DNA from: a virus
Length of the DNA stretch: 21,720 nucleotides
IMG/VR virus record: IMGVR_UViG_3300015374_000777
Span: 1 to 21,720 of that record
Reading direction: 5' to 3' (one strand)
Below, piece after piece: positions 440 through 14,311 of this stretch. Within the stretch, counting starts at the first letter, position 1, and each line of letters opens with the position of its first letter. The translations under genes and the position numbers were made by a program. The notes beneath the pieces are model-generated. The model had not been told where the DNA came from. It made no database searches and saw only the letters and a list, made by a program, of their open reading frames with translations.

Positions 440-1339
440 TTATGAAGTCCGTATCTGCAACGGCGGGAACCGATCAACATGTAGCTGATCGGTTCGGGTT
501 GCCGGATTAAGGAGTTGGCTGACAAGCGCACGGGCCGGCGACACTTTCGCTTCGATCAGGCCGGTTCTTAATGTCCGCTCTGCTTGCGCAAAGAAGTCTA
601 ATTCCGCAGGCAACAAGATGGCCGTGTCGCGATTGGCGAGTAGGGCGCGGATCATCCATGTCCGAGCTTCATCGAATCGCCGCGTATTAAATAAGTGGCG
701 AGTCATCAACGCTAACGCGTGCGGATCTCTCGGATTGTCCGCTATCTGAAGCTCTAACAATCGTTCGTTCCTGGCCCCTTTTTCTCGATCACGCCAGATA
801 TCGGGATCGTAGCCCGTATGAAGAATATGCGGACCTTGCGCTATCCCCCGCCAACGCCCTTGCGACGGGTCGCCGTTGAGTCGGACCTCTTCATGAATCC
901 GTCCCCAATAACGAATGCGTGGATCGTTCCGAAAGACCCGCACCGACGAGACTTCGGTTCCCAGCACGCGTCCTGACGTAGTGCATTCTTCGATCCACAT
1001 CGCATACCCGTCCGCGCCCCCTCTTCGGACCGCGAAGCCGATGTCTTCACCACCCGCCTGAAGCAGCCTATCGTCGGCGTCGATGACGAGAATCCAATCC
1101 GCCGTGCAATGCCCTAAGGCGGCGTTCCGTGCGGCCGAGAAATTGTCGCACCACTCGAAGTTGAAAACCTTGGCCCCTTCGGCTTTCGCAATGTCGGGCG
1201 TCGTGTCCGTCGAACCAGTGTCGACAACAATCATCTCGGCGACATAAGGAGCAGCCGAACGTAGCGCGCCCGCGATTGAGTGCGCCTCGTTGCGAGCGAT
1301 CATCGCCAAGGAGATGGGAGCCGACTTCTTGCTCTTCAC
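440..1339 (-). CDS. Family 2 glycosyltransferase (SunS-like) in phage structural operon
   Basis: This 299-residue protein has the full signature of an inverting GT-A glycosyltransferase of family 2. The N-terminus reads SLAMIARNEAHSIAGAL. The nucleotide-sugar site DTGSTDTT is at residues 40-47, FEWCDNFSAARNAAL at 61-75, and the metal-binding DADD at 87-90. WGRIHEEV is at 145-152 and HTGYD at 174-178. Residues about 190-235 form a TPR-like helical pair, as in the SunS-like subgroup. It should transfer a sugar from a nucleotide-sugar donor to a protein or glycan acceptor; donor and acceptor cannot be read from sequence. The start is GTG, four bases inside the preceding gene (GTGA overlap), without a clear Shine-Dalgarno, which suggests coupled translation. 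Glycosylation of virion proteins or of the host surface are both possible. Confidence 0.88.
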   Translation of the reverse strand: MKSKKSAPISLAMIARNEAHSIAGALRSAAPYVAEMIVVDTGSTDTTPDIAKAEGAKVFNFEWCDNFSAARNAALGHCTADWILVIDADDRLLQAGGEDIGFAVRRGGADGYAMWIEECTTSGRVLGTEVSSVRVFRNDPRIRYWGRIHEEVRLNGDPSQGRWRGIAQGPHILHTGYDPDIWRDREKGARNERLLELQIADNPRDPHALALMTRHLFNTRRFDEARTWMIRALLANRDTAILLPAELDFFAQAERTLRTGLIEAKVSPARALVSQLLNPATRTDQLHVDRFPPLQIRTS

Positions 1340-3802: not shown

Positions 3803-4396
3803 TTAGGCTGGCCGATCTACTTCGGCTGCGGTCGGCACGTAGGCCCCGTTGGGAGTAATCTCGTTCGGTCGGCCCGACAGCCGGCGCTCAACGGCTGCGA
3901 CTGACTCGGCGTCATACAGGTCGGGGTCGAGCTTGCGGCCAAGTGGGATCGGCCGACCAGGCTGCGCCGCGAACAAGTTACCCGGCTCGATTCCAGAATC
4001 GGCTGGGTAGCGAGGATTCGGCACCTCAACTTCTTCGCCGTTGTGCAAGACCGTGATCGTACGCTTCGGTTCGGGCACCTCGATGAGCAGGCCGTTCATG
4101 AGGAGTTGGTTGATCTGCGGCGTCCGATAGACATAGTCAGGGGTTGGACCAGCGATGAACGCTTCGCCGCCCGGATGACGCGGATCGCGCTCGAACAGGA
4201 CAACACGATCATCTGTCCGCGCCGACATTGCCCAAAAGACGTTGGTTCCCCAACGATCTAGTTCCGCGTCTTGGACGCCGCGAGAACGGGCGCGTTCCCG
4301 CTCTCGCTCAGCGACAGTCTTCGTCTCGGCCAATGCTTCAGCCTCCGCCTTAGAGATTAGTCGGCCATCTGGGCCGCGTGGACGTGCTGTGGCCAT
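3803..4396 (-). CDS. Phage head-region protein sharing an ERDP-xHP-GEAF domain with its neighbour
   Basis: This 197-residue protein starts with a charged helical segment (SKAEAEALAETKTVAERERERARSRG). A compact domain at about residues 60-105 contains VVLFERDPRHPGGEAFI and NQLLMNGLLIEV. The C-terminal half is Pro-rich (HNGEEVEVPNPRYPAD, AQPGRPIPLGRKLDPDL, NEITPNGAYVPTAAEV). The middle domain is clearly related to the C-terminus of the gene just upstream (VALWERDPSHPNGEAFV, AVVSRLAAGILKEG). Both genes lie between the capsid protein and the connectors, where small head accessory proteins are common. No named family is recognised. The ATG follows two adjacent in-frame TAA codons of the previous gene and has only a weak ribosome-binding site. 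Confidence 0.75.
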   Translation of the reverse strand: MATARPRGPDGRLISKAEAEALAETKTVAERERERARSRGVQDAELDRWGTNVFWAMSARTDDRVVLFERDPRHPGGEAFIAGPTPDYVYRTPQINQLLMNGLLIEVPEPKRTITVLHNGEEVEVPNPRYPADSGIEPGNLFAAQPGRPIPLGRKLDPDLYDAESVAAVERRLSGRPNEITPNGAYVPTAAEVDRPA

Positions 4397-4402
4397 ACCT
4401 TA

Positions 4403-4954
4403 TTAGGAAGGCTTCGACCCCTCCTTCAAGATACCCGCCGCCAGCCGGGACACGACCGCCCCAGTCTTCGCGACCTCGACCGTTTCGCCAGGCCCAACGA
4501 ACGCTTCGCCGTTCGGATGGGACGGGTCGCGCTCCCAAAGAGCAACGCGCGGCTCTTGGAGACCTGACTGAACCCAAATCTTCTCGACACCCGACTCATC
4601 GGGGTCTTCGCCCTCCGTCCGCGAGGTTGCCTTGTCGTGATCGTCCGCTGTCGTTTCGTCCTTCTCCTGGGGGACGGCCAGTCCCTGGATCAAGGGCGGA
4701 TGTATCACCGACGAGCCTTCGGCCGGAACTGGCTGAGGCCCTTCCAAACTCATCGCCATCGTCGCACCCATCGCCCGGTCCGAGGCAGCAGTCCGCGCTG
4801 AGGAAGTCCGCTCTGAGGAACTGCGCTCTGCTGGCTTAGGGGTGGAAGTGCTCGAAGTGCTCATGCTCGAACTGGTCGAGGGAGACGTGCCTTGTTCTGC
4901 CATAGGAGTATTGTCCTCGAATTCTTCGGGCGAGATTTTTCGAATCTGAACCAT
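4403..4954 (-). CDS. Low-complexity phage protein with ERDP-xHP-GEAF C-terminal domain
   Basis: This 183-residue protein has a Ser/Thr/Pro-rich middle (TSPSTSSSMSTSSTSTPKPA, then SSSERTSSARTAASDRA) that is surely disordered. A charged linker (KDETTADDHDKATSRTEGED) leads to a C-terminal domain of about 50 residues containing VALWERDPSHPNGEAFVGPG and RLAAGILKEG. That last domain is paralogous to the centre of the next gene. The start is the ATG at 4954, two bases after the preceding stop, with AGGA nine bases upstream; an in-frame TTG at 4960 overlaps that stop and is less likely. A flexible tether plus a small domain could suit a virion surface or scaffold role, but this is inference. Confidence 0.72.
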   Translation of the reverse strand: MVQIRKISPEEFEDNTPMAEQGTSPSTSSSMSTSSTSTPKPAERSSSERTSSARTAASDRAMGATMAMSLEGPQPVPAEGSSVIHPPLIQGLAVPQEKDETTADDHDKATSRTEGEDPDESGVEKIWVQSGLQEPRVALWERDPSHPNGEAFVGPGETVEVAKTGAVVSRLAAGILKEGSKPS

Positions 4955-4956
4955 AC

Positions 4957-5331
4957 TCAACGATCCTGCTCTGCCAAACGCTCTAGCTTCTCACGTTCAC
5001 GAGCCAATTGCTCATCGGCCGCGTGCTCTAAACGCTCGGTGGCTAACTCGGTGCGGGCTTGAGGCAGAGCACGCAGAATCTCGTCCAACTTTAAGTGCAA
5101 CGCTGCGGAGTCGCGATTTTGAGTGTTCTGGATAACGAACACGAGCAAGTACGTGACCACGGTCGTCGCCGTGTTGATCACCAGTTGCCAGGTATCCGAG
5201 AAGCCGAAGAGGGGGCCGCTGATCGCCCACAGGATGACCGCCGCGCACGACAGGACGAAGGCGAGCGGATGCCCGGTCCAAACGCCTGTCGTCGTAGCAA
5301 TCTGAGCGAACCACTTGTTCAGCTTTTCCAC
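4957..5331 (-). CDS. Low-affinity iron permease family membrane protein (PF04120)
   Basis: This 124-residue protein has two membrane segments, about residues 22-42 (PLAFVLSCAAVILWAISG) and 50-68 (LVINTATTVVTYLLVFVIQ). The loop between them has GPLFGFSDTWQLVINT, and the second segment is followed by IQNTQNRD and KLDEIL. These are the hallmark motifs of the bacterial low-affinity iron permease family, and the length is normal for it. The C-terminus is a charged helix (RTELATERLEHAADEQLAREREKLERL), probably cytoplasmic coiled coil. Despite the family name, transport by the short bacterial members is poorly established. The start is GTG with GAGAGG eight bases upstream, 25 bases after the capsid gene. 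Alternatives such as a holin-like role cannot be excluded, but the motif match is strong. Confidence 0.88.
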   Translation of the reverse strand: MEKLNKWFAQIATTTGVWTGHPLAFVLSCAAVILWAISGPLFGFSDTWQLVINTATTVVTYLLVFVIQNTQNRDSAALHLKLDEILRALPQARTELATERLEHAADEQLAREREKLERLAEQDR

Positions 5332-5356: not shown

Positions 5357-6667
5357 CTACGCAGCAATGTTCAGGATACGGCTGGAATTTGGGTCTATGA
5401 TTCCGTACCCCTCCACCTCAGTTATCGTCAATAGCTGAGTTTGGTTATTAATAAACCGATCTACCTCGCTGACGTTGCCACCAACTTCAGTCACTCGCTC
5501 CAACGCGGCACTCGACTGAAGCGCTACCAACTTGGAGGCGGGCGCGTCTGCCGTGACGCCGTACTCCATCGCGATGCTCAACTGGTTCGCCAACGGGCTA
5601 ACCGTGCCGAACGCATTCGCTGGGATCATCGCGTAGGGAGTCTGGACACCAATGGAGACCGGCAGGAGCAGCATCTGCATAATCGGGGCCTCTTGGCCCA
5701 AGATGATGTCCGGCTGGTACGTCAACGCGAACCGAAGCTTGAAGGTCAGGAACGACTGAAGTGTCAGCGTGCCCGCTGTTGATCCGGGATGCAGACCCGT
5801 TTGGGTCAAGACCGTCGCTGCGGTGTTCGCGTTACCGTCACCGTTGATGATCGTGTTCATCGCGATAGTGACCTTGTCCATCTCGGACTGAATGGCCATG
5901 CGCGCGATGATGAACGCGATCCGGTCTACCCGCTGACGGCGAAGCTGCTCGTACGTTGCTTGAAGCGCACGACCAAACTTGTAGATACGCAGCGTGTGCT
6001 CACCCGTGACGAGCGAGGTGCGCGGGATCTCGGTGCCTTCAGCGACACGCTTCATGCGATACGCGTCAGTCCCGAAGTCGTCCGTGATGTAGAGCGTGCG
6101 GTAGGCGTCGGTGTCGATAGCGGTCGTCCGCGCAACCAGCCGCGCGAGCGGGATTGGCGGAACGAGACGCTTCGCCCGAATTTCGGGGTTGTCGTACCAG
6201 GGGTTAATCAGACCGCCGAGCGCCGCGTCGCCAGACATGAGAACGGCACGAGTTTGCAGGTCCGAACCGTCCGACATACCCGACTGAGCCATTGCCAAAC
6301 GGGCCTGGCTAACGGGGTCGAGATTCTGAGCCCGACGCCAAACGCGGGACATGAACTCGGGCATCAGCGCGCGGCGCTCAGGAGTTTCGAGGCACTCCTG
6401 CCACGTGGACGCGAACAGACCAATCTCTGGTACGGGCGCGAGCACGATCCCCGTCGCCCGAACCAATCGTTCGAACGCATCGAGTGCGCGGTCGTCCGCC
6501 TCACGCTCCGATGTTGGATCGGTGTTTTCGAGGTACTGCGAAAGATTCATGCCGCGCTCTGCGGCATCCCGATAGATGCGCGATCCGTTGGTTCCGAGCG
6601 CACGGATCGTGTCTTCGGGGGATTGACGCCGGATCTGGATACTGGCCGGCGTGAGAGCATTTGCCAT
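5357..6667 (-). CDS. Major capsid protein (HK97 fold)
   Basis: This 436-residue protein should be the main shell subunit. The N-terminal third is helical and charged (SPEDTIRALGTNGSRIYRDAAERG, ERRALMPEFMSRVWRRAQ), probably the arm or delta-like region. From about residue 150 it follows the HK97 order. RTLYITDDFG and EGTEIPRTSLVTGEHTLRIY are followed by the spine-helix-like RRQRVDRIAFIIARMAIQSE with DKVTIAMNTIINGDGN, then the domain with LTYQPDIILGQEAPI. The C-terminus is VEGYGIIDPNSSRILNIAA. I chose the ATG at 6667 because AAAGGAG lies eight bases upstream; a longer frame from 6709 would run into the decoration gene. It follows the protease and decoration genes as expected. Confidence 0.88.
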   Translation of the reverse strand: MANALTPASIQIRRQSPEDTIRALGTNGSRIYRDAAERGMNLSQYLENTDPTSEREADDRALDAFERLVRATGIVLAPVPEIGLFASTWQECLETPERRALMPEFMSRVWRRAQNLDPVSQARLAMAQSGMSDGSDLQTRAVLMSGDAALGGLINPWYDNPEIRAKRLVPPIPLARLVARTTAIDTDAYRTLYITDDFGTDAYRMKRVAEGTEIPRTSLVTGEHTLRIYKFGRALQATYEQLRRQRVDRIAFIIARMAIQSEMDKVTIAMNTIINGDGNANTAATVLTQTGLHPGSTAGTLTLQSFLTFKLRFALTYQPDIILGQEAPIMQMLLLPVSIGVQTPYAMIPANAFGTVSPLANQLSIAMEYGVTADAPASKLVALQSSAALERVTEVGGNVSEVDRFINNQTQLLTITEVEGYGIIDPNSSRILNIAA

Positions 6668-6686: not shown

Positions 6687-7124
6687 CTAGCCGCCCAGGT
6701 CCACGACAACCTTGGTCATGTCCACGTTGTCCCAAATAATTGGTCCCGTTTTAGCTAGCTCAGCGGCAGTCGCCGAGTTCGCATTGCGGATGTAGCCTTT
6801 CGCGGCAACGAGCAACGCGCCCACTGCCTTGAGCCCAGGCGTGCACGTCGCGGCCGTACCAGCGGGAAATGTCGTGTTGCCCTTGTTCTGAACCGTGCAC
6901 GCCCCGTCGGCTTCAACCTTGAGTAGCTTGCCGACGATAGCGTCGCCGTCAGCGCAAAGGCCAACCACGTCGGTTCCGGCGACGAACGTGACCGCGAGCC
7001 CAACGGCGGTCGAACCGCCAGCAGTGGTTGCGCTGTAAATGATTGTCGAGCCATCCGCCCAAAACGTCTGCGCGTTGTAACGCTGATCGTCAAAGCCGAT
7101 GGCAAGTCGGCCAGTAGCAGGCAT
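6687..7124 (-). CDS. Capsid decoration / head-stabilising protein (DUF2190-like)
   Basis: This is a 145-residue, Gly/Ala/Thr/Val-rich beta protein with no charged helices. It contains IIYSATTAGGSTAVGLAVTF, DVVGLCADGDAIVGKLLKVE, GACTVQNKGNTTFPAGTA and PGLKAVGALLVAAKGYIRNA. The segment of the form DGDAIVGKLLKVEADGACTVQ is typical of the small capsid decoration proteins encoded between protease and capsid genes (lambda gpD-like by role, DUF2190-like by sequence feel). Such proteins bind at capsomer interfaces after expansion and stabilise the shell. The ATG has AAGGGAG seven bases upstream, and the gene lies directly between the protease and capsid genes. Confidence 0.78.
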   Translation of the reverse strand: MPATGRLAIGFDDQRYNAQTFWADGSTIIYSATTAGGSTAVGLAVTFVAGTDVVGLCADGDAIVGKLLKVEADGACTVQNKGNTTFPAGTAATCTPGLKAVGALLVAAKGYIRNANSATAAELAKTGPIIWDNVDMTKVVVDLGG

Positions 7125-10632: not shown

Positions 10633-11385
10633 CTAAATTGGCACTGGCTCGCGCGCGTCTTCTTCCAGTATTTCCAAGTCCGCGAGCCCAAGAATCCAGA
10701 GTTCTTCGCGCTCCCAACGTGGCGGGGCGGCAGCGTGGAGTCGTACGGTTGGCCGGCCAGTCTGACCGTTCAGGGCTGGCTGAACGGCTACGGGTGATAC
10801 GACATGACCGGCCGCTCGTAGCGTAGCTGGACTGGCTCGTGTAACCAATCGGCCCGCGCTCGGTTGGACAACGTGCGTCCGAGTTTCGACTCGACCAACG
10901 GACGCCGTCGCGGCGACGAACGCCAGACTTGGCTGAATCGCGAGGGCATAGCCTGTTGTCTCACCAAGGAACCCTTCGACCTTTGCACGCGCCCTGACTG
11001 GTTGAACAACACCCGCTCGGGCGACAACCTCGCCGCGCAGACCTCTGACGCGAACTTCAGCGTACAGACGCTGGCGCTTAGGAACGAGTCGCGCTGGCCG
11101 AGACGGCCCGAGAACACCCTCGACAATAACCGGCGGGATCGGGCGGATTGGCTCACCAATAACCGCGTAGAGGGGTACGGTCCGCTCGTAGGCTGGGGCA
11201 ACAGGAGCTTCCTGGCCAACGACACCAATCCACGAGACCGCGAGTCGGACACCCGCACCAACCGACGCATTGAGCGGGATGGCCCTCGCGCTCGTCGCCC
11301 GAAATGCGAGCGAGAGAGGAATTACCCGCTGTCTAGCTGGAAGTGGACTTAGCCCAATCCAAGAAACAGCGAGGCGTTCGGTCAC
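10633..11385 (-). CDS. Arg/Val-rich beta-repeat protein of the fibre cassette
   Basis: This is a 250-residue basic protein rich in Arg, Val, Ala and Pro. It contains loose repeats in which an Arg or Lys pair precedes a hydrophobic strand. RLAVSWIG occurs twice (about residues 4 and 48), and others include RTVPLYAVIGEPIRP, RLYAEVRVRGLRGEVVARAG and THVVQPSAGRLVTRASPA. The C-terminus is acidic (ILGLADLEILEEDAREP). The GTG at 11385 overlaps the previous stop as GTGA; a longer frame to 11484 lies inside the upstream gene. The alternation of basic turns and strands resembles the 20-residue repeats of the 752-residue protein two genes upstream, so it may be a degenerate relative. No named family is recognised. 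Confidence 0.65.
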   Translation of the reverse strand: MTERLAVSWIGLSPLPARQRVIPLSLAFRATSARAIPLNASVGAGVRLAVSWIGVVGQEAPVAPAYERTVPLYAVIGEPIRPIPPVIVEGVLGPSRPARLVPKRQRLYAEVRVRGLRGEVVARAGVVQPVRARAKVEGFLGETTGYALAIQPSLAFVAATASVGRVETRTHVVQPSAGRLVTRASPATLRAAGHVVSPVAVQPALNGQTGRPTVRLHAAAPPRWEREELWILGLADLEILEEDAREPVPI

Positions 11386-12056
11386 GGCACTTCCGCTGTT
11401 AGTCGAATCTGTCCGCCGAGCGCGAATCCGTCTCCAGCGCGGTATGCGTCCGATTCGGCCGACGTGAAGATAAACGTCACCCAATCGAACGCGCCGGTCG
11501 GGACGATGACCACTTGCGTACCGACTTGGATCGCATCCGCATCCAACAAGTCGATCCTCAGTCTGGCAGTGGTAGTCTCGCCGGGTACGGCCCCCGCCCG
11601 AACGAGCAACTGCAAGGGAGTGCCAACGCCGGGATCAACCATCGGCGGCAGGCCGAAGACGATGGGGGTCGAAGACCCACTCGGAATTGCGGGCGAGACG
11701 ATGTATGTCGTGTCGTCTGGTGTTGGTTCGCTCACGTCGGGATACGTTGCGGGTCCGCCGGTTTGATTTGTCCAATCGTCAATTGAGACATCGCTGTCTG
11801 GCTGAACGAATCCGAGACTGACGAGGCCCGAGATCGGAACGCTGCGCTGGCGAGTGGCGCTGAGCGCGGCCGTTGTAGACGCGTGGCCAGTCGCCGACCC
11901 AGTTAGCGCAACGAACACTCCCGTGCTGAGCGCGACGCTTATCGGGACAGAGCGCTCATTGACCGCGATGAGTGCGGGAAGTGGGGTACCGGGCAGTGCT
12001 TGCCCAGGCTGGGTAAACGGACTGCCAAGAACGCCGGTGAATCGTGGTTGCGTCAT
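11382..12056 (-). CDS. Probable phage surface/fibre protein with short beta repeats and a C-terminal beta domain
   Basis: This 224-residue protein has an N-terminal part with two copies of RSVPIS (NERSVPISVALSTG, RQRSVPISGLVSLG), about 40 residues apart, that echo the repeats of the previous gene. The C-terminal 120 residues look like a globular beta-sandwich (DDTTYIVSPAIPSGSSTPIV, LQLLVRAGAVPGETTTARLR, FDWVTFIFTSAESDAYRAGD). Such domains are common in fibre or head-surface proteins and may bind carbohydrate. The ATG at 12056 overlaps the preceding stop as ATGA, and the gene overlaps the next as GTGA, so three genes form a coupled set. Confidence 0.7.
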   Translation of the reverse strand: MTQPRFTGVLGSPFTQPGQALPGTPLPALIAVNERSVPISVALSTGVFVALTGSATGHASTTAALSATRQRSVPISGLVSLGFVQPDSDVSIDDWTNQTGGPATYPDVSEPTPDDTTYIVSPAIPSGSSTPIVFGLPPMVDPGVGTPLQLLVRAGAVPGETTTARLRIDLLDADAIQVGTQVVIVPTGAFDWVTFIFTSAESDAYRAGDGFALGGQIRLTAEVP

Positions 12057-14311
12057 GTCTCTAGCACGAACTGACCACTCTCCGACTCCCACAACACGCG
12101 CGGCGAGGCTGTGTTTGACTCGAACGCAGTGTTAGACCAGCGCACGTCTGGGTAGGCCCCAGCGAGATTGAACCGGATACCTGTCCAAGTCACGTTGGTG
12201 GTCACGCCGGGTACCGCGATGATCGTGCCACTCGTGTTGCCAATACCGAGCGCCGCAGCTAGCAACGAGCGCTTGCGGGTGAGCAGGACCGTTACGGTCG
12301 CACTGGCAAACGCACTCGCATTGATTCCGCGCCGCGCATTGACCTGAGCGACGGTCGCCGCGACACCAACAGCATTGCCCTTGACGTACTTGACGGGGAT
12401 TGAATTGACTTGAGCGGCACCCGCCGATAGGCCAGTTAATGCGCGGCGGACAGTCAGCGCTTGCGTAACGGTGGTTGAGCCATTGCTCGAAACCGTCAGT
12501 CCGCGCTTGGTCGTGGGTGCGGCGGTCGTGATTGCCAGTCCGGTAATCGCGACAGTTAGTGACCGCCTGCGACTCGGCTGCCCGATGACCGACGCCGAAC
12601 CAACAGACTGGGCCAGTAACGCATGCTGCGGGCTGACCTGACCACTAGCTACGCTGCCGCCTAGTGCACTAGCGCTGAGTGACCGCCTGCGACTGGGTTG
12701 CGCGCCCGCCGATGCCGACCCAACTGCCTGAGCTACCAGCGCACGCTGTGCTCGAACCTGGCCACTAACGACGCTGACGCCTAGTGCACTGGCGTTGAGC
12801 GGCCGTCGAATGCTGATCTGACCAACGACAACGCTGCTGCCGATAGCGCCGGCGGTAAGCGAGCGGCGGACATTAATCGTCGCGCTGGTTGTTGCCGCGC
12901 CGAAGGTATTGCCCTTGACGTACTTGACGGGCAACGCGTTGCCCGACGCCTGGCCCGCTGATAGGCCCGTGATTGCCCGGCGGCGATAAAGCGCGACCGT
13001 AACGCTCGCGACGCCCGTACTGCTGACAGTCAGCCCGCGCCGAACAGTCGGCGCAGCGCTAACACTGGCGATACCAACGGTTGCCGCCGTAAGTGGACGA
13101 CGCCGGCCAGGCTGTGCGGCAACCGTGACCGATCCCAACGCGCTAGCGGATAAGCTGCGTCGTGCTGATGGCTGACCGACTTCGGTCGCTACGCCTGCGC
13201 TGCTAACCGTCAAGCTACGTCGCGCGCTCGGTTGACCAACTTCGGTCGCTGCGCCGCTGGAGACGCCGGTTAGCGACAGGCGGCGGGAGAGTGTTGCCGT
13301 GACCAATGCCTGGCCGACTGATGCAACTGTCAGCGACCGACGAGACGTGATCGACCCGCTGACGTTTGCCTGACCAGTCGTCGCGCCCGTCAGGTTCTTG
13401 GCTGTGACAGGCGCTGGACTGGCTGCCGCGAGCACCATGTGCCCGAGCATGCCCACTGGAGACGCCAGCGTGCCCGACGACGGCATGAAGATCGCGACAA
13501 CCGTCGGTTTCTTATCGACTGCCCCGGTCGCCGTTGCCATGGCAGTTGCCGTACCGATGAGAGACCGACGAGCCGAAGGTTGTCCAGCTTCGATAGCGCT
13601 GCCGGACGTAGCCCCAATCAGACTGCGCTTCTTAGAGGGCGTGGCAGAACTACTGCCAGTGCCCGTGCTTGCGCCGGTCAGATTCTTGTAGACAATCACC
13701 CGCAACGTGGTGCCCGTGCCGGTCTTGCGGGTGTTCGACGCACTCAACGTTTGGCTAAAGGCCGTGCAGGTGGTGCTCGCCCCTAGCGATGTCGTGTTGT
13801 TATGACCAAGCGCAACGCTGATGGTGGTTGAGTTGGCCTGCGTCTTGTCGATGGTCGAACCGGTGGCGACGGTGCTGATCGTGGCCGCCGATGTCCAGGC
13901 GTAAAACAACGCCTCGTAATCACCCGCCACGCCCCCAGTGACCGGCGCGCCTGTAGGCATCGTGGCGTTGTTGCCAGTGCTGGACGCCGCCAGGTCGGTG
14001 TCTGGCAACACTGTCGAACCAGCCTGGTTGTAGGCATTGCATACCCAGGCGGCAACCGACGCAGCGTTAGTGAAACTGAGCGTCAGACTGACGCTGTACT
14101 GTGCCCAGTAGACAGTCAGCGACTGACCGGTACCCGCCGAATCAGTACCAAGCGAGGTCCAACCAGTCGGTACCGCAGGGCCAGCCGTGCCCGCGTTCGC
14201 TACGCCGACGAGCACCATGTCGCCAGCGGCTGTGCTGGCCGGCAGTGTTACCGAAAATACTGCCCCCGACGCAGCGGTACCGCTGGTCGCGGTGCGCTGC
14301 GAAATGGGCAT
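12053..14311 (-). CDS. Large repeat-built fibre-like protein with about 20 copies of a 20-residue unit
   Basis: This is a 752-residue protein. Residues 1-210 form a Ser/Thr/Gly-rich beta domain (VFSVTLPASTAAGDMVLVGV, GDYEALFYAWTSAATI) of the kind found at phage surfaces. Residues about 210-690 consist of roughly twenty units near 20 residues each, of consensus RRSLTVSSAGVATEVGQPSA, with Arg or Lys pairs at the start, Gly near position 10 and QPS near the end. A larger 178-residue duplication carries two copies of PVKYVKGN. The C-terminal 55 residues (TNVTWTGIRFNLAGAYPDVR, PRVLWESESGQFVLET) are a separate cap. A beta-solenoid or fibre shaft is a reasonable inference. The ATG is four bases after the previous stop, with no obvious ribosome-binding site. 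Confidence 0.78.
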   Translation of the reverse strand: MPISQRTATSGTAASGAVFSVTLPASTAAGDMVLVGVANAGTAGPAVPTGWTSLGTDSAGTGQSLTVYWAQYSVSLTLSFTNAASVAAWVCNAYNQAGSTVLPDTDLAASSTGNNATMPTGAPVTGGVAGDYEALFYAWTSAATISTVATGSTIDKTQANSTTISVALGHNNTTSLGASTTCTAFSQTLSASNTRKTGTGTTLRVIVYKNLTGASTGTGSSSATPSKKRSLIGATSGSAIEAGQPSARRSLIGTATAMATATGAVDKKPTVVAIFMPSSGTLASPVGMLGHMVLAAASPAPVTAKNLTGATTGQANVSGSITSRRSLTVASVGQALVTATLSRRLSLTGVSSGAATEVGQPSARRSLTVSSAGVATEVGQPSARRSLSASALGSVTVAAQPGRRRPLTAATVGIASVSAAPTVRRGLTVSSTGVASVTVALYRRRAITGLSAGQASGNALPVKYVKGNTFGAATTSATINVRRSLTAGAIGSSVVVGQISIRRPLNASALGVSVVSGQVRAQRALVAQAVGSASAGAQPSRRRSLSASALGGSVASGQVSPQHALLAQSVGSASVIGQPSRRRSLTVAITGLAITTAAPTTKRGLTVSSNGSTTVTQALTVRRALTGLSAGAAQVNSIPVKYVKGNAVGVAATVAQVNARRGINASAFASATVTVLLTRKRSLLAAALGIGNTSGTIIAVPGVTTNVTWTGIRFNLAGAYPDVRWSNTAFESNTASPRVLWESESGQFVLET
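12225..13690 (-). repeat. Tandem 60-bp coding repeats with nested 120-bp and 534-bp copies
   Basis: The DNA repeats along with the protein. The 12-base acttcggtcgct recurs 60 bases apart (13189 and 13249). A 17-base copy recurs 120 bases apart (12558-12574 and 12678-12694), as does cgcctagtgcact (12659 and 12779). An identical 24-base copy recurs 534 bases apart (12374-12397 and 12908-12931). Exact copies at several scales point to repeated intragenic duplication and recombination. Confidence 0.85.

Follow-up and report, generated by a model that had tools for sequence, protein, structure and literature searches.

A PF04120-family membrane protein gene inserted in a phage head operon is a candidate for accessory cargo that moves among phages

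The window analysed here (the entire 21,720-base virus record, which is probably a genome fragment) carries a gene of the PF04120 family that is inserted as a single gene between the major capsid protein gene and the next gene of the head operon. Based on its distribution and context in other genomes, we favor, with moderate confidence, the explanation that the gene is accessory cargo: it would move among phages, use the expression of the operon that hosts it and, through the small inner-membrane protein that it encodes, modify the membrane of the host cell. Its role is likely to be host modification rather than virion building.

The gene is a real open reading frame (ORF), confirmed at exactly 4957..5331 of the minus strand, with a GTG start and a product of 124 amino acids; the plus strand over the same positions is interrupted by stop codons. 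A sequence-only reading of the window had assigned the product to PF04120 from the motifs GPLFGFSDTWQLVINT, IQNTQNRD and KLDEIL, all of which we found in the 124-aa product, and it had named an HMM search as the result that could overturn this assignment. That search produced a match to Pfam PF04120.17 across profile positions 1–114 of 128 (E 3.8e-41; 140.3 bits vs a gathering cut-off of 25). Residues 7–113 also match phrog_3485, annotated as “membrane protein” (E 1.3e-27, 97.4 bits) and listed in the PHROG category of moron, auxiliary metabolic and host takeover genes.

Hydropathy analysis identified two hydrophobic segments in the protein, at approximately residues 22–42 and 47–69, and AlphaFold2 predicted helices at residues 2–19, 22–42 and 46–88 along with two C-terminal helices (mean pLDDT 86, pTM 0.56, 76-member alignment). 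The two methods thus agree on the pair of membrane segments that had been proposed from the sequence, and these helices flank the SDTWQL motif, as PF04120 membership leads one to expect. In the AlphaFold2 model, a tight turn at the SDTW motif separates helices 22–42 and 46–88, and the long helix 46–88 is predicted to reach past the membrane. Across 76 phage and bacterial members, residues W35, G39, Q49, N53, T54, T56, T60, F65 and Q68 are invariant, and these positions mostly form a polar track on helix 2. Pairwise dN/dS ratios against clade mates are approximately 0.12–0.25 where dS could be estimated, which indicates purifying selection on a functioning gene rather than a chance ORF. The GC content of the gene (0.58) and its GC3 (0.72) fall inside the range of the other genes in the window.

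Comparisons of the protein with solved structures returned one non-significant match by sequence (E 0.8) and, using Foldseek with the predicted model, no match in the PDB at E up to 10. Foldseek also listed three BFVD entries (E 4–7), which we dismissed as meaningless for a helical hairpin, and a weak match to Peptidase_S49_N/SohB (E ~0.05) was judged to reflect the likeness of one membrane-plus-charged-helix protein to another.

Table 1. Features of the window, with positions counted from its first base.
Feature	Positions	Strand	Evidence or remark
PF04120-family two-helix membrane protein gene	4957..5331	-	Pfam, phrog_3485, AlphaFold2, hydropathy
Gap after capsid stop codon	5332..5356	-	25 bases; GGGAGAGG is a plausible ribosome-binding site
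Major capsid protein gene	5357..6667	-	phrog_3922, E 2.3e-43; PF25209, 41.5 bits
Next head-operon gene	4403..4960	-	Start overlaps PF04120 stop by 4 bases
Following gene	3803..4396	-	Product similar to that of 4403..4960 (34–37% over ~65–79 residues)
Gene upstream of capsid gene; virion structural protein family, decoration-like	6687..7124	-	phrog_4588, E 1.8e-4
Glycosyltransferase gene	440..1303	-	Moron-type phrog_13126, E 2.3e-19; beyond the tail-terminator gene
Genes for repeat-containing proteins (752 aa and neighbours)	10633..14311	-	Many imperfect RRSLTxxSxGxA-type repeats

As the sequence-only reading had placed it, the PF04120 gene follows the capsid gene by 25 bases and precedes other head genes; that reading had left the minus strand unmentioned. 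For the capsid gene itself, alignment with relatives favored the ATG at 6667, and the longest ORF reaches 6709. The product of the gene upstream of the capsid gene is 82% identical in the related locus L022. On the other side, tblastn and gene calls identified a homologue of 4403..4960 directly after the capsid gene in three relatives (L022, L024 and L025). The genes at 3803–4396 and 4403–4960 are adjacent and their products are alike, which suggests an old tandem duplication; neither product has a family match. In the minus-strand region scanned upstream of the PF04120 start, no sigma-70-like promoter was found, other promoter types being outside the scan, and the overlap between the PF04120 stop codon and the next start leaves no room for a terminator there. 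Based on these features, we expect the gene to be transcribed and translated together with the head genes, here presumably late.

Relatives of the capsid gene are few in IMG/VR, where two differently designed viral scans yielded the same few loci, and some of these loci belong to the same phage, so the history of the junction is read from a small sample. One locus (L002) represents nearly the same phage as the window and has the PF04120 gene at the same place. In L022 and L024, with capsids 87% identical to that of the window, and in L025, with a capsid 78% identical, the capsid stop codon is followed within ~10–35 bases by the homologue of 4403..4960, and the PF04120 site is empty. In L026, with a capsid 72% identical, the junction instead holds an opposite-strand ORF of 319 amino acids with an HNH_3 domain (26.4 bits, cut-off 24.8), and the 79-kb record contains no PF04120 gene anywhere. 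This HNH_3 ORF (L026:11455–12414, minus strand) immediately follows the capsid gene, whose ORF there overruns its usual end.

The PF04120 gene is not fixed at the capsid junction among related phages, a point that the sequence-only reading had proposed to check; the view of the gene as foreign to the core head operon is borne out. Because close relatives do without the gene at this place, it appears to be dispensable for head assembly. A relative nonetheless carries the family at another location: L022 and L004 are parts of one 124.8-kb record, and its sole PF04120 copy, at 111,355–111,720, lies ~29 kb away and on the other strand. That copy is followed by replication-initiation-like and DnaC-like genes, and an integrase gene is located at ~104.8 kb, ~6 kb from it. 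Between the window and this record, the capsids have the 87% identity given above, whereas the PF04120 proteins are 65% identical.

Phylogenetic analysis placed the window protein among phage proteins. In the PF04120 tree, which was built on about 140 columns and includes 148 phage and bacterial proteins, it falls within a phage-only group of six (SH-aLRT 99); a smaller, more careful tree recovered the same six (UFBoot/SH-aLRT 94/93). Its closest phage relatives are the proteins of L003 (76% identity) and then L006 (72%), and tblastn identified no head genes in common between either of these loci and the window. Near-full-length matches reach 54% on bacterial chromosomes and 55% on plasmids, and Ensifer plasmids reach 66% over an 83-residue core of the protein. 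The phage-only clade and the greater distance of the bacterial copies argue that the window copy was not recently acquired from the bacteria sampled, contrary to an earlier suggestion of recent capture, and that it has circulated among phages. A group of the window, L003 and L006 that leaves out L004 has moderate support (94/75), and on that support it suggests that the window copy and the copy of the capsid relative L004 were separate acquisitions. At least 257 plasmid records, most of them from Sinorhizobium, Agrobacterium, Rhizobium and Burkholderia, also carry PF04120 genes.

The contexts of PF04120 genes in other phages are diverse. Genes at these loci were predicted using a home-made codon-usage gene caller, for which start sites and small genes are approximate. 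Among isolate phages, nearly every match came from a mycobacteriophage of Bixzunavirus type (173 Mycobacterium phage records), with five Streptomyces phage records besides; in the Mycobacterium phage MoMoMixon, the PF04120-type gene lies between genes annotated as head fibre and head decoration. The PF04120-type ORF of Streptomyces phage Sham (L028:6001–6345) is unannotated in its record. Elsewhere, PF04120 genes occur beside terminase or portal genes (L006, L040, L090 and L096), inside a baseplate module (L012), and after genes for a virion structural protein (L058), an internal-virion-like giant protein (L053) or a fibre protein (L009). For L053, a PADLOC match to Csm2 (E 0.027) was discarded as chance. 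Endolysin genes are near in two loci, where the PF04120 gene is upstream (L035) or downstream (L060) of the endolysin gene, and in L047 its surroundings include a weak match to an Rz-like spanin.

Other copies occupy replication or recombination regions (L004 and L007), and that of L007 adjoins a gene for a Cas4/RecB-type exonuclease; given these two loci, an early idea that phage PF04120 copies are always late was dropped. Two copies lie beside HNH genes, one of which encodes an IscB-like RRXRR-HNH protein (L013) and the other a different HNH protein (L061), and in very large phages the family occurs in regions without recognisable virion genes. The gene for the IscB-like protein (L013:8625–9998) overlaps the PF04120 start by ≤4 bases. 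A gene for a small DUF3309-like membrane protein (weak match) directly follows the PF04120 gene in L091 (6389–6553), and similar glycine-rich small membrane genes precede it in L064 and L081. In most phage lineages examined, the PF04120 gene is tightly packed against its upstream neighbour, often at −4 to +4 bases and with overlaps of 1 or 4 bases. Of the phage lineages read, about half have virion, packaging or lysis genes as neighbours; as genes for virion and lysis functions occupy much of any phage genome, we claim no statistical preference. In bacteria, the neighbours include genes for sensor kinases, Ku, LigD, trehalase-like proteins and short-chain dehydrogenases, a raw tally of Pfam families that may hint at stress physiology.

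These observations can be joined in a mechanism that accords with the cargo explanation. A single PF04120 gene would move horizontally among phages, as part of a family that is also found on plasmids and chromosomes, and in the window it would have entered the junction of the capsid gene with the head gene that follows, a site that relatives leave empty or fill with an HNH gene. Carrying neither promoter nor terminator of its own, it would be read and translated with whichever operon it enters. The protein would form a helical hairpin in the inner membrane with a long cytoplasmic helix, and it would oligomerise, probably through the polar face of helix 2 (Q49, N53, T54, T56, T60 and Q68). By performing the same task as its host counterpart, it may then alter the membrane of the infected cell, with effects on ion or solute permeability or the exclusion of competing phages; since phage and bacterial proteins are strongly conserved, they probably have one biochemical activity in common.

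The functions put forward in the sequence-only reading (iron uptake, a pore, a benefit to a lysogen) are conjectures. The neighbours seen in about half of the lineages could mean a lysis or virion role instead. We regard it as unlikely, if still worth weighing, that the protein is a holin, antiholin or other lysis-timing protein that acts late, forms oligomers and, as the infection ends, either permeabilises the membrane or regulates it. The small size, the two hydrophobic helices and the presumably late operon fit such a role, as do the lysis genes that adjoin or lie near the PF04120 gene in L035 and L060 and the spanin-like match in the region of L047. However, the window protein matched no holin family in PHROG, Pfam or NCBIfam, and the better similarity to a holin or antiholin that the sequence-only reading had named as counter-evidence was not seen, phrog_3485 being an uncharacterised membrane protein. 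No lysis family was found in the 20 window genes scanned, which probably come from a genome fragment; the replication region of L004 and the exonuclease neighbour of L007 are unsuited to a timed late protein; and the same conserved protein is kept on bacterial chromosomes, which would be unlikely for a killer pore. A role as virion component or as a membrane protein for DNA ejection, encoded with the head genes, is very improbable. It would be consistent with the position of Bixzunavirus gp109 between annotated head genes and with several lineages, L058 and L053 among them, in which the PF04120 gene has head, baseplate or internal-virion genes as neighbours, but relatives with capsids 72–87% identical have no PF04120 gene in the head operon, the L004 and L007 copies are in replication regions, and the family is conserved with bacterial chromosomal proteins. 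We found no usable virion proteomics of Bxz1-type phages in the literature.

Metal uptake, by which the protein would raise or change the host's import of iron or another divalent cation during infection, seems to us slightly less probable than a lysis role. The near-full-length PF04120 match and the strongly conserved polar residues of helix 2 favor it, whereas no cluster of His or Cys is found among the conserved positions, and iron-uptake families are absent among the 25 commonest of 122 Pfam families beside bacterial copies (raw tally). The term “iron permease” itself has no source other than the family name, which we take to be inherited from yeast Fet4; our literature search found incidental mentions of PF04120 and no test of the function of a bacterial or phage member. 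Superinfection exclusion, a special case of the cargo explanation in which a small inner-membrane protein stops the DNA entry of competing phages, is doubtful and a little less probable again. Exclusion factors are often small phage membrane proteins, and the accessory, roaming distribution of the gene suits this role; against it, the window protein has no match among the PADLOC models, and exclusion works best when the protein is made early or from a prophage, whereas the gene here is in a head operon.

Since PHROG 3485 already brings together PF04120 genes from phages, the present gene does not represent a new kind. The useful pattern is that unrelated phages repeatedly carry genes of a single conserved family of membrane proteins, packed closely into operons. 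A wider proposal, which we advance tentatively and consider possible rather than probable, is that PF04120 is a widespread roaming inner-membrane effector that has become lodged in operons for virion proteins, packaging or lysis in many unrelated phages, and that it has a single unrecognised activity in common with the bacterial proteins, be it control of ions, timing of lysis or exclusion. If this is true, the “iron permease” label is wrong for the whole bacterial family. Bixzunavirus phages in M. smegmatis combine a genetic system with a PF04120 relative, which makes the function of the family directly testable.

Among known systems, the closest is Pfam PF04120 itself (Iron_permease; in bacteria, “low affinity iron permease family protein,” and DUF1452 in one older record), with which the window protein has the conserved core GPxFGFSDTWQLxINTxTT...IQNTQNRD...KLDEL in common; the window protein differs in belonging to its own phage clade and in being encoded within a capsid operon. 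PHROG 3485 already holds phage genes of this type, and the window protein matches it significantly; however, the isolate matches have ~43–44% identity over part of the protein, and none is at a comparable capsid junction in the isolate collection searched. The gp109 of mycobacteriophage MoMoMixon (Bixzunavirus) is likewise a PF04120-type membrane protein encoded amid annotated head genes, but it has ~43% identity over 80 residues, belongs to an unrelated phage and is flanked by small hypothetical genes. Class II holins resemble the window protein in length, in their two helices and charged C-terminus, and in a presumably late operon; they differ in that the window protein has no sequence match to them, has no lysis genes seen beside it among the 20 window genes scanned and is common to bacterial chromosomes. 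The comparison with a classical moron, which the sequence-only reading had offered, holds in part. Unlike a moron, the gene has no promoter or terminator of its own that we could find, is coupled into the operon by its overlap with the downstream gene, and has the same base composition as its neighbours; like a moron, it is a lone addition between two genes that are direct neighbours in L022, L024 and L025.
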